A stretch of DNA of 64,000 nt from Hydrogenothermaceae bacterium (GTDB taxonomy: Bacteria > Aquificota > Aquificia > Aquificales > Hydrogenothermaceae), in contig JAOABH010000004.1 in assembly GCA_026418455.1 (NCBI GenBank), positions 620,001-684,000 on the forward strand, given 5' to 3'. This document shows, in pieces, positions 7,894-13,555 of this stretch (its first letter is position 1; every line of letters starts with the position of its first letter). A program made the position numbers and the translations under genes. The notes under the pieces were generated by a model that worked only from the letters and a program-made list of their open reading frames with translations, did no database searches and had not been told where the DNA came from.

Positions 7894-9141
7894 ATGAAAG
7901 CTTACAACTTGCCTAATGAAAGAGGATATTTTGGAATATTCGGTGGTAAATACCTACCGGAAACTCTTATTCCGGCTTTACAGGAACTTGAGGAAAAATA
8001 CAATCAGATAAAAAAAGATGGTGATTTTCATAGGGAGCTAATTTACTATCTCAATGAATATGCTGGTAGACCTACAATACTTTACTATGCAAAAAGGTTA
8101 ACAGATGCAGTAGGTGGAGCAAAGATATACCTAAAGAGAGAGGATATGCTACATACAGGAGCTCACAAAATAAACAACACTCTCGGACAAGTCTTACTTA
8201 CAAAGAAGATAGGTAAAAGAAGGATAATTGCAGAAACAGGTGCAGGACAACACGGAGTTTCTACAGCAACAGCTGCTGCTCTATTCGGTCTTGAATGTAC
8301 CATATACATGGGTGAAGAAGATGCAGAGAGACAAGCTCTTAATGTTTTTAGAATGAAGCTATTAGGTGCAGAAGTTGAGATAGTGAGAAGTGGAAGTAGG
8401 ACATTAAAAGATGCAGTTAACGAAGCATTACGGGATTGGGTTACAAATGTAAGAACTACACATTACATAATAGGGTCTGCGTTAGGACCACATCCTTTCC
8501 CTATGATAGTTAGAGATTTTCAAAGTGTAATAGGAAATGAAACAAAAAACCAGATAGTTGAGATAGAAGGAAGACTTCCTGATGCCGTTGTTGCCTGTGT
8601 AGGTGGGGGTAGTAACGCAATAGGGATGTTCTATCCATTTGTAGAAGATACAGAAGTTAAACTTTATGGTGTAGAGGCAGCCGGATACGGTATTGAAACC
8701 GGAATGCATGCTGCAAGTTTAAACGGTGGATCCATAGGTGTTCTACACGGTATGAAATCATACTTCTTACAAGATGAATGGGGACAGATAGAACATACCC
8801 ACTCAATATCAGCAGGACTTGATTATCCAGGTGTAGGTCCGGAGCATGCTTACTTAAAAGAGTCAGGAAGAGCTAATTATATCACTGCAACAGATGAAGA
8901 AGCTATAGAGGGATTTTTCTTACTCTCAAGAACAGAGGGTATAATACCAGCTCTTGAAAGCTCTCATGCTGTAATAAAAGCTGTAGAAATAGCAAGAGAG
9001 CTTGGAAAAGGAAAAATCGTAGTTATCAATCTGTCAGGAAGAGGAGACAAAGATGTTCAACAACTCAAAAACTACCTTGATACAAATCCAGACGTAAGAG
9101 ATAGGATAATGTCAAGACTTAAAGAGGTCTACGGCATCTAA
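7894..9141 (+). CDS. trpB: Tryptophan synthase beta chain
   Basis: [18 protein letters not shown]-lysine motif, [25 protein letters not shown]. Confidence 0.96.
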
Positions 9142-10176
9142 ATGGAGATACTACTTCCAATAGCAAATATCTCTGTAAATCCTTTTGAGATTGTAATTAT
9201 AGGTTTTTGGGTGGGAATACTTTCTGGTATGCTGGGAATAGGTGGCGGAATAGTAGTTAATCCTATTCTCATAAAACTTGGAGTTCCTTCCGTTGTAGTC
9301 GTAGGAACATCTATAAGTCAGATGATTGGAGCTTCACTTTCCGGATTCTTAACTTATTTAAGGTCAAAACTTGTAGATATAAAGATGGGATTGTTTATTG
9401 TTGGTTTTGGGACAATAGGAGGAATCACGGGAATTTTTATAATAAACTACTTTAAACATCTTGGAAACGTTAGACAGTTTGTCCTCTCTGTGTATGTAGT
9501 CTATCTGCTTTTATTGGGAATTTTTATACTACTTGAAACTATAAAGAATAAAGGTAAAGAAGATAAAAAGGGAAAAATTAAAAAGTTCTGTGAGAGGTTA
9601 CCTTTAAAAACAGAGTTTAAAGTAGGTGAGAGGTCTATAATTATTCCTGCTTTTATAGGTATTCTATCCGGACTACTTTCTGCAATAATGGGAATAGGAG
9701 GAGGAAACCTTGTAATACCAGCACTTATGTATCTTGCTGGTTATTCCATACAGATGGCAGTCGCTGTAAGTGTATTTCAGATGATATTCATCGCCTCTTT
9801 TTTAGCTTTCCTCCACTCTCTTTTTAACCATGGAGTTGATATAGTTCTTGGAATTTTACTTTTAATAGGTTCTTCCTTTGGTGCTGTGTTTGGAGCATTG
9901 TTAGGTCAAAAGATGAAAAGAGATTATCTCAAACTTATATTAGTTTTTCTTATGATAACCGTTGCTATCTACAGTCTATTTCAACTTTTAGAAAGAAAAA
10001 GAGAAGTTTATAATCCTATTTTACCTGATAATATACTCTCCCACTTGCTTGTAGAATATCCTTACATATATTCAAGTTTGGTAGTCATTTTGAGTTTAGT
10101 AATGGGGTTTATAATCAGCAGTTTTGCCTTTAGGTTAAGAACATTTTTACTTGCCGTTTTTTCAAAAGGTGATTAA
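9142..10176 (+). CDS. TauE/SafE-family sulfite/organosulfonate exporter-like permease
   Basis: Two repeats of GMLGIGGGIVVNPIL / AIMGIGGGNLVIPAL in a multi-TM protein. Confidence 0.85.
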   Translation: MEILLPIANISVNPFEIVIIGFWVGILSGMLGIGGGIVVNPILIKLGVPSVVVVGTSISQMIGASLSGFLTYLRSKLVDIKMGLFIVGFGTIGGITGIFIINYFKHLGNVRQFVLSVYVVYLLLLGIFILLETIKNKGKEDKKGKIKKFCERLPLKTEFKVGERSIIIPAFIGILSGLLSAIMGIGGGNLVIPALMYLAGYSIQMAVAVSVFQMIFIASFLAFLHSLFNHGVDIVLGILLLIGSSFGAVFGALLGQKMKRDYLKLILVFLMITVAIYSLFQLLERKREVYNPILPDNILSHLLVEYPYIYSSLVVILSLVMGFIISSFAFRLRTFLLAVFSKGD

Positions 10177-10183
10177 AAGGTAG

Positions 10184-11782
10184 ATGCTAAAAGTAGGATT
10201 TATAGATTATAAAAATACTATACCTTTCTGTATAGAAAGTGTTAAAAATGTAGAGGTAATACGGGATTATCCCGCAAACCTAAATAAGATGTTATTTGAG
10301 GGAAATATAGATGTAGGTATAGTTTCTTCTGGAGAGTATATAGAACATTACTACAGATACTTTATATTTCCTGAACTGTCCATCTCTGGCTACAGAGATG
10401 TTAAGTCCGTTGCCATACTTTCAAACACACCTTTAGAAGATGTGAGTACTATCTATCTAACAAAAGAATCAAAAACTTCCGTATTACTTACAAAGGTTAT
10501 ATTTGAAAAATTTTTGAAAAAAAAACCAACCTACAGATATTTTGATTCTATAAAAAATAAAGAAACTGTCTTGGTTATAGGAGATAAAGCTCTTGATATT
10601 CAACAAAAGTTTAGATATTGTTATGATCTTTCAAAAATATGGTTTGATTACACTGGATTACCATTCACATTTGCTCTATGGTGTGTAAATAAAGAGAAGT
10701 TTTTTGAAAACAGAGAAGAAGTTTTACAGCTATACAATCAACTTAAAGAAAATAAAGAGGATTTCTTTAAATCTTTAGAAAATATTAAGTTAGATGGCTA
10801 CCTTAAAGCATATCTAAGAAATATTGATTACTCACTTACAGAGAAACATGTAGAATCTCTCTTAATTTTCTCAGAGTATCTATTTGAATTAGGATATATA
10901 AAATCAATTCCGGATTTTAAATTTATTGATGGAGTAGTTATTACAAGAGATAAAACAAAAACTATCTACAACTTTAATTATAAAGAAGCATACCACAGTA
11001 CAAAAGCGGGAGCATACACAGAGAGTTTTGAAAAGTTTGTTAAACCATCTAATATGAAAACTATTTTAGAAAAAGGACAGCCCATCACTATTTTAGATGT
11101 TGGATTTGGTCTTGGATACAATGTAGCAACAGCTATCAACTTTGCAAAAACTATATCAAAAAAGCCTATGTTAGAGATAATATCCATAGAGAAAGACATA
11201 AACTTTCTTGAAAATATAAGGAAAATCGATTATCCGGAAAACCTATCACAGGAGTATCAGTTTATACTTTCATTAAAACCGGTTACAGTCAATATCTCCG
11301 CTGAAGAGATAAAAGGTTTTCAAACAAGAGAAGAAAATATAACTCTAACAGTTTTAATAGATGAGGGAAGAAAGATAATAAACCTCTTAAAAAGAGAGGG
11401 AAAAAAGTTTGATACCATTTTTTACGACCCATTCTCTCCAAAAGTAAATACGGAGATGTGGACTTTAGATATATTTAGAGTTTTAGGTGAAATAATAAAA
11501 GATGATGGAATCTTATTAACATACTCAAACGCAATACCTGTAAAGGTAGGACTTTTAGAAGCGGGGTTTAAAATAGGATATATATCTCCGGTGGGAAGGA
11601 GAACTCCGTCTCTGGTAGCAACAAAATGTGGAGATATCTATCAGATATTAGAAGAAGAGATTAAAAAAATAAGAAGTTCAAAATTTGCAGTTCCTTACAG
11701 AGATTTAGACTTTTCTTTAACTGGAAAACAGATATGGGAAAATTGGGAAAAAGAGGTAGCCAAAGCCACCTCCGGAAAGTGA
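10184..11782 (+). CDS. Fusion protein: N-terminal MqnA-like chorismate dehydratase + C-terminal MnmC2 (DUF752)-like SAM methyltransferase
   Basis: N-term GFIDYKNTIPF, SSGEYIEHY, GDKALDIQ, WFDYTGLPFTFALW (MqnA family); C-term YKEAYHSTKAGAYTESFEKF, ILDVGFGLGYNVATAI, DTIFYDPFSPKVNTEMW (MnmC2 family). Confidence 0.82.
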   Translation: MLKVGFIDYKNTIPFCIESVKNVEVIRDYPANLNKMLFEGNIDVGIVSSGEYIEHYYRYFIFPELSISGYRDVKSVAILSNTPLEDVSTIYLTKESKTSVLLTKVIFEKFLKKKPTYRYFDSIKNKETVLVIGDKALDIQQKFRYCYDLSKIWFDYTGLPFTFALWCVNKEKFFENREEVLQLYNQLKENKEDFFKSLENIKLDGYLKAYLRNIDYSLTEKHVESLLIFSEYLFELGYIKSIPDFKFIDGVVITRDKTKTIYNFNYKEAYHSTKAGAYTESFEKFVKPSNMKTILEKGQPITILDVGFGLGYNVATAINFAKTISKKPMLEIISIEKDINFLENIRKIDYPENLSQEYQFILSLKPVTVNISAEEIKGFQTREENITLTVLIDEGRKIINLLKREGKKFDTIFYDPFSPKVNTEMWTLDIFRVLGEIIKDDGILLTYSNAIPVKVGLLEAGFKIGYISPVGRRTPSLVATKCGDIYQILEEEIKKIRSSKFAVPYRDLDFSLTGKQIWENWEKEVAKATSGK

Positions 11783-13555
11783 TTACTCTCCTTCTATAAA
11801 CGGTTTTAGATATTTAGCTCTGTGAGGATGTCTTAACTTTCTTAAAGCTTTTGCCTCTATCTGTCTTATTCTTTCTCTCGTTACTCCAAATCTCTTACCT
11901 ACCTGCTCAAGTGTATGCTCAGTATCATCTTCAAGACCAAATCTATACCTTAGCACCTGCTCCTCTCTCTCTGAGAGGGTAGATAAAACTTCATCAAGTT
12001 GAGCCCTTAGAGCATTTTTAAGGACGTGAGCTTCCGGAGATAAGACAGTCTTATCTTCAATAAAATCTCCAAGATGGGACTCTTCATCTGTTCCAATAGG
12101 TGTTTCAAGGGAGATAGGTTCTTGTGAAGTTCTGAGTATCTTTCTTACTTTATCAGCAGGCATACCTACCTTCTTAGCTATCTCTTCTGGGGTTGGCTCT
12201 CTTCCAAGTTCCTGAACTAAAGACCTTGATACTCTGATAAGTTTATTTATAGTTTCTATCATATGGACAGGTATTCTTATCGTTCTTGCTTGGTCTGCTA
12301 TAGCCCTTGTTATAGCCTGTCTTATCCACCATGTAGCATAAGTTGAGAACTTATACCCTCTCTTATAGTCATATTTATCAACAGCTTTCATAAGTCCTAT
12401 ATTACCTTCCTGTATTAAATCAAGAAACTGCAGACCTCTGTTTGTATACTTTTTGGCTATTGAGACCACAAGTCTTAAGTTTGCTTTAACCATAATCTGT
12501 TTAACATTGTTTATCTCATTTCTACCTTCCTGTATAAGGTCTATAACATGCTCAAACTCAGAAGGGACAGTGCCTATCTTCTCTTTAAGGCCCTCTATCT
12601 CGTTTTTAAGTCTGAGTGTTTCTGTTCTTAATATCTCAAATCTTCCAAAGGAAAACCCGTTTTTCTCTATCTTCTTTAGCAGTTCGGGATACTTTTCATA
12701 TGATCCATCTAATAACTTATCAATATCCGGACTTATCTTCTGAATGATTTTTATTCTTTTTTCATAATCTCTCTCATTTTTTCTTAACTTTGTATAAAGA
12801 TCTTTTAGTTCATCTGCAAACTTATCCAGTTTTGTAAATTTAATATTAAGTTGCTTTATAAATTTGTTTAACTTTGCATGTTGCCATACGAAATCTCTCT
12901 TTGCTTCTATACTTTTTTCTTCAAGATATCTCTTCTCTTTTTCTTTCAGATCTCTATATAAAATTGCAAGTTCCATACCTTTTTTAACAAAATCGGCTGT
13001 AGTTTTGTCAAAACCATCTGAATTCTCAATTTCGTAGTTGACATCTTCAGCTGCATCTTCCTTCTCTTCTTCCTGATCCAGTTCCTCTATACTTAAAATA
13101 TCCTGAACTTTGATCTTTCCATCTATAACTTTTGCCCATTCGTCTAATAATCTCTCCGTTAAAAATGATGTTCTGAGAAGCCCTCTGAAAACCTTTTTTC
13201 TTCCTCTCTCTATCTCTTTTGCATACCTAATCTCTTCATCTCTCGTTAAAAGTGGTATCTTACCCATCTCTCTCAGATACAACTTTACAGGGTCATCAGC
13301 CTTAGACCAAACATCACTATCAAGATCTATTCCAAGGTATTCTGAGATATCATCTTCTGATGTAACATTTTGCTCATCTCTCACATCAATATTTAGTTCA
13401 TTTAGATACTCAATAAGCAGTTCAAGTTTTTCATCTGAAGTAAAAAATTCTTCATCTACATACTTTGTTATCTCGGAATGAGTAACGTAACCCTTCTCTC
13501 TCGCAAGATTTATAAGGGTTTTCACATCATCTCTCTCATAGAGATTCAATATCAT
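11783..13555 (-). CDS. rpoD: RNA polymerase primary sigma factor (sigma-70)
   Basis: [62 protein letters not shown]-term [20 protein letters not shown]. Confidence 0.97.

Follow-up and report, generated by a model that had tools for sequence, protein, structure and literature searches.

Architecture of the fusion gene

The open reading frame at positions 10184–11782 (+ strand) of the window, i.e. the 64,000 nucleotides analysed here (positions 620001–684000 of one contig of the genome G000, which comprises 1.54 Mb in 8 contigs), is confirmed to encode a complete MqnA (residues 1–247) and a complete MnmC2 (residues 248–532), joined without a linker into one chain of 532 amino acids. In our judgement, this mqnA::mnmC2 gene very probably arose by the loss of the stop and start codons between two operon neighbours and gives rise to one bifunctional polypeptide with two independent activities.

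The assignment is based on the reading frame and on family matches. The frame is uninterrupted over 532 codons and its ATG start is preceded by an AAAAGG stretch. The Pfam family PF02621 (VitK2_biosynth) covers residues 2–234 (E = 8.5e-44; 150.3 bits vs. a cut-off of 26), the alignment spanning profile positions 1–251 of 252, and PF05430 (Methyltransf_30, DUF752) covers residues 373–481 (E = 1.7e-23; 83.3 bits vs. a cut-off of 22). With both families detected far above their gathering scores in the domain searches that the initial annotation had proposed, its claim of MqnA and MnmC2 fused in one frame is borne out; all motifs cited there are present in the ORF. The NCBIfam MnmC2 domain model NF033855 (equivalog-domain) matches residues 262–479 (E = 5.7e-30) but, at 104.8 bits, falls short of the cut-off of 136. 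So does, with 112.1 bits, the MnmC2 of Aquifex aeolicus, an enzyme characterised biochemically; the cut-off thus excludes genuine enzymes of this phylum and does not discriminate there.

The ATG of the fusion gene follows 7 nt after the stop codon of tauE (9142–10176, +), which encodes a TauE/SafE-family membrane protein (PF01925, E = 2.2e-40) and is conserved within the family as the gene next to mqnA on its upstream side. The next gene upstream, at a distance of 0 nt from tauE, is trpB (7894–9141, +), with synteny in G078, G097 and G102. On the other side, the convergent gene of an rpoD-type sigma factor (11783–13555, −) directly abuts with its stop the stop of the fusion gene, and G078 has the same neighbour. 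A TauE/SafE-family permease gene is found ahead of mqnA in nearly every Hydrogenothermaceae genome examined; among those in which the region is readable, G079 and G098 are the exceptions.

The MqnA and MnmC2 modules

The futalosine route to naphthoquinones begins with MqnA, which converts chorismate to 3-enolpyruvylbenzoate. The MqnA half of the fusion (10184–10924, +) reaches the normal C-terminus of the family. Its best matches by sequence among the solved structures are exclusively MqnA proteins (chorismate dehydratases), with sequence identities of ca. 20–27%. Superposition of the modelled residues 1–251 onto S. coelicolor MqnA (pdb-code: 7an9) gave a Z-score of 33.1 and a deviation of 1.8 Å over 250 residues; with Z = 33 to MqnA vs. 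23 to MqnD (2czl), the N-terminal half is an MqnA and not an MqnD paralogue. An alignment of 18 MqnA sequences, comprising the nine fusions described below, S. coelicolor MqnA and eight further homologues, contains 17 invariant positions including N11, S96, G133, D148, W153 and T157. Asn11 (10214–10216, +) corresponds to the Asn with chain index 18 in S. coelicolor MqnA (7ahr), which is replaced by Ser in the variant entry 7an7. Within the TGLPFTFALW motif (residues 157–166; 10652–10681, +), T157, P160, F161, F163 and A164 are invariant. The suggested inspection of the MqnA catalytic residues therefore finds the active-site Asn and the other invariant residues kept.

MnmC2 catalyses the SAM-dependent methylation of nm5U34 in tRNA. 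The MnmC2 half (10925–11779, +) matches A. aeolicus MnmC2 (3VYW) with E = 2.4e-39 (phmmer), and the modelled residues 248–529 superimpose onto this structure with Z = 32.5 and 2.0 Å over 260 residues at 36% identity. Residues were compared in an alignment which took in a bifunctional Burkholderiaceae MnmC. In the SAM-binding loop LDVGFGLGYN (residues 304–313; 11093–11122, +), L304, F308–G311 and N313 are invariant. The equally invariant Glu336 (11189–11191, +) aligns with Glu101 of E. coli MnmC, and the invariant Asp415 in FYDPFSP (residues 413–419; 11420–11440, +) corresponds to Asp178 of E. coli MnmC. In the latter enzyme, Glu101 binds the ribose of SAM and Asp178 is the proposed base (PMC3648344). 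Three Sulfurihydrogenibium fusions that are closely related to one another, those of G099, G101 and G103 (L066, L067 and L069), stop ca. 30 residues early and lack the C-terminal AVPY... helix of MnmC2.

AlphaFold2 models were obtained for the window protein (mean pLDDT 95.0, pTM 0.89) and for the S. yellowstonense fusion (mean pLDDT 94.1, pTM 0.89), both with junction pLDDT values of ca. 92–95. The pTM of 0.89 suggests that the two domains are packed in a defined relative placement. Pairwise dN/dS ratios of ca. 0.06–0.20 in each half (NG86) indicate that selection keeps both of them.

The junction

The two modules meet at Ile248–Asp249 (ATT GAT; 10925–10930, +), the position of the ancestral Met1–Asp2 of MnmC2. 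The usual MqnA end (...PDFRF) is directly followed by Ile/Thr-Asp where the unfused MnmC2 has Met1–Asp2 (MDSRIVTADGTE vs. TDGTIITRDGTK), and Ile or Thr followed by Asp occupies the junction in 9/9 fusions. Because these residues fall exactly on the old Met1–Asp2, no linker has been added. Between residues 201 and 290 of the window fusion there is no in-frame ATG, GTG or TTG, in line with the earlier statement that MnmC2 is not preceded by an internal start; the first in-frame start after residue 290 is M291, and starting there would cost ca. 40 residues of MnmC2.

Partner enzymes encoded in the genome

PF02621 has two members in G000: the fusion itself and a gene with an MqnD-like sequence (HSPDSDDAF). 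PF05430 has a single one, the fusion. A search of G000 for a second, stand-alone mqnA, as the initial annotation had advised, or mnmC2 found none. The fusion is the only mqnA and the only mnmC2 of the genome, and the fused gene is consequently the only source of both predicted activities. The genome further encodes MqnC (512 bits vs. a cut-off of 428), MqnE (509 bits vs. a cut-off of 435) and MnmG (789.7 bits), a component of the MnmEG pathway that would supply nm5U34; mqnC, mqnD, mqnE and mnmG are located away from the fusion gene. Among the futalosine genes to be sought according to the earlier proposal, mqnC and mqnD are present, but no futalosine nucleosidase MqnB (TIGR03664) was found in the whole genome of G000, the only PNP_UDP_1 protein of which (L110:1438–2277, −) resembles MTA phosphorylase. 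The predicted futalosine pathway therefore has a gap at this one step.

No FAD-dependent MnmC1 domain follows MnmC2 on its C-terminal side, where the ORF comes to its end. In G000 the best MnmC1 match, a separate protein of 362 amino acids, reaches 80.7 bits vs. a cut-off of 174.2 and was rejected as MnmC1; it is a general FAD oxidoreductase. In the Aquifex arrangement MnmC2 works without MnmC1 (PMC6313347, PMC3648344), and the MnmC2 half fits this arrangement.

Distribution, gene order and phylogeny

The two Pfam families were each used to search 136 Aquificota genomes, and the whole protein served as the query against 41 Hydrogenothermaceae genomes. This survey, as recommended beforehand, detected the full-length fusion in nine genomes of three genera within one family: G000 and G078 (genus g1), G097, G098, G099 and G101–G103 (genus g9, Sulfurihydrogenibium) and G104 (genus g10). 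A further Sulfurihydrogenibium genome, G100, was left out of the count, as its locus ends at a contig edge. The fusion proteins of the relatives are 51–59% identical to the window protein, and two of the carriers are single-contig genomes. A contig scan with two short peptide patterns, in which distant groups are thinly covered, detected fusions in this family only. No fission is seen across the three genera. In most relatives of the phylum, mqnA and mnmC2 are separate and often unlinked. Two side observations concern gene content: in family f5 of the same class (G114–G135) nearly all genomes have only one PF02621 gene, such that either mqnA or mqnD may be absent or may have diverged strongly there, and G096, listed as 97% complete, has no PF02621 or PF05430 match although its relatives have both.

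The gene order within the family forms a graded series. Genus g2 has two separate pairs, tauE-mqnA and FAH-mnmC2. In the Persephonella type (g6/g7), the genes are arranged as tauE-mqnA-FAH-mnmC2, tightly packed on a single strand, with one or two additional small genes after mqnA in some g7 genomes. In genus g4, FAH is gone from between and tauE-mqnA-mnmC2 remains, with mqnA and mnmC2 separated by 5 nt or 2 nt or overlapping by 4 nt (ATGA). Finally, in g1, g9 and g10 mqnA and mnmC2 are one gene. Several Hydrogenothermaceae (L071:2699–3304, +; L072:1720–2331, +; L082; L083) show this close linkage of the FAH-family gene (PF01557) to mnmC2, and in Persephonella-type genomes, where it lies between mqnA and mnmC2, it overlaps the latter. 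Reading frames of 733–744 amino acids in g7 were considered as further mqnA-FAH-mnmC2 fusions and rejected; their direct translation contains many stops, and FAH lies in another frame, so that these long frames merely reflect how the search joined its matches.

The nine fusions group together as a single clade in the MnmC2 tree (99/96), the sister of which is the abutting-gene genus g4 (98/90). The MqnA-only tree does not resolve them as one clade, while their monophyly is not rejected (p-AU 0.27), and support for the fusion clade in the concatenated tree is only 80/94. An ancient fusion which later split was also considered, prompted by a phmmer alignment in which the N-terminal extension of the Aquifex protein was paired with helices at the C-terminus of MqnA; this reading was rejected, as profile-profile comparison yielded a probability of 8.7% over 23 columns.

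Probable origin and function of the fusion

The fusion most likely originated once, in an ancestor shared by Sulfurihydrogenibium and two neighbouring genera of the Hydrogenothermaceae. In the tightly packed operon of a streamlined genome, mqnA would have lost its stop codon and mnmC2, the gene immediately behind it, its start codon, and the gene-order series in the relatives provides a sufficient reason for the union without regulatory coupling. We infer that the N-terminal half dehydrates chorismate to 3-enolpyruvylbenzoate and that the C-terminal half acts as SAM-dependent methyltransferase from nm5(s2)U34 to mnm5(s2)U34 in tRNAs, presumably in the stand-alone mode of Aquifex MnmC2 without an MnmC1 oxidase. 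It is most likely that the two active sites operate independently of each other. By itself, the fusion ensures obligatory 1:1 synthesis and, judging from the models, a defined packing of the two domains. Its persistence across three genera leaves room for a benefit beyond shared expression.

Several other explanations have to be considered. That an assembly error or a frameshift joined two genes, a possibility raised in the initial annotation, is ruled out for practical purposes: the fusion recurs in nine assemblies, single-contig genomes among them, with 51–59% protein identity to the window protein, and hence is no assembly artefact. It also seems highly improbable that the polypeptide is cleaved, or that MnmC2 is made separately from an internal start, which would leave two ordinary enzymes. 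Each half is indeed complete, and ATT, the codon now found where MnmC2 once started, is used for initiation on rare occasions; however, the window fusion offers no in-frame ATG, GTG or TTG between residues 201 and 290, seven of the nine fusions (7/9) carry ACA at the old start, several of them have no start codon nearby, and the junction is predicted to be well ordered rather than a flexible linker. Comparably remote is the idea that the MqnA half has been recruited to another substrate, as had been suggested, or serves as a non-catalytic tRNA-binding or scaffold domain. The identity to solved MqnA structures, only ca. 20–27%, would be compatible with such a change, but 17 residues, Asn11 among them, are shared without exception with characterised and distant MqnA proteins, the structural similarity to chorismate dehydratase is high (Z = 33), and purifying selection on the MqnA half equals that on the MnmC2 half. 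Moreover, G000 has mqnC, mqnD and mqnE but no mqnA besides the fusion; the simplest reading is therefore that the MqnA half retains its usual role, and the suggested recruitment finds no support.

Another alternative is that the fusion couples quinone synthesis to wobble-uridine methylation, a possibility inferred in the initial annotation, and does so either by allostery or by a shared sensing of chorismate or SAM status. Its retention in three genera without fission and the apparently defined domain packing predicted in two models (pTM 0.89) are compatible with this proposal. Chorismate-derived prephenate feeds another U34 modification (CmoA/CmoB), a precedent by which a link between the two chemistries is not absurd. 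Nevertheless, we regard such a coupling as very unlikely, since the genes are apart and often unlinked in most relatives of the phylum, operon adjacency accounts for the union, neither a common substrate nor a regulatory domain is seen, and no paper in the literature searched treats MqnA and MnmC together. The coupling claim is thus not supported, the merger of operon neighbours being sufficient. The more specific notion that chorismate flux into quinones and wobble-uridine methylation influence each other via the domain interface in these thermophiles is, in our view, likewise very unlikely; if true, it would be, to our knowledge, the first known link of quinone synthesis with tRNA wobble modification.

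Relation to known enzymes

In our classification, the fusion combines two known enzymes in a new domain architecture, for which no prior description was found in the literature searched. Subscription journals lay mostly outside this search, in which no paper paired MqnA with MnmC or MnmC2 with futalosine; a survey of the futalosine pathway reported MqnA in 9/9 Aquificae and mentions no fusion (PMC3914697). A. aeolicus MnmC2 (3VYW), from the same phylum, shares the fold and the SAM and catalytic residues with the MnmC2 half, and MnmC1 is attached in neither of them. However, it is a stand-alone protein with its own N-terminal extension of ca. 45 residues, whereas the MnmC2 half of the fusion is attached at its N-terminus to an entire MqnA. 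Likewise, the MqnA proteins of S. coelicolor (7AHR/2NXO) and D. radiodurans (2I6E/6O9A) have the same fold (Z = 33) and the invariant positions including the Asn, but known MqnA enzymes are single-domain proteins of ca. 250–290 amino acids. The bifunctional MnmC (MnmC2-MnmC1) of E. coli and Y. pestis also contains MnmC2 within a two-enzyme polypeptide, with the active sites ca. 45 Å apart (PMC3648344). There, the partner belongs to the same tRNA pathway and is C-terminal, in contrast to the N-terminal, unrelated quinone enzyme found here.

As in other fusions derived from operon neighbours, a sister genus possesses the adjacent unfused orthologues in the same order and on the same strand; the difference is that the partners belong to unrelated pathways, which weakens the usual inference that fused proteins are functionally linked. 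These genes provide a clean natural series from unlinked via abutting genes to one protein, and the explanation of the fusion by merging neighbours is a warning against reading every fusion as a functional link. For annotation, the first futalosine enzyme and the mnm5U34 methyltransferase have to be corrected to a single gene in these genera, so that a knock-out or transfer of one carries the other along. So far as found, the fusion is confined to one small branch of hot-spring bacteria.
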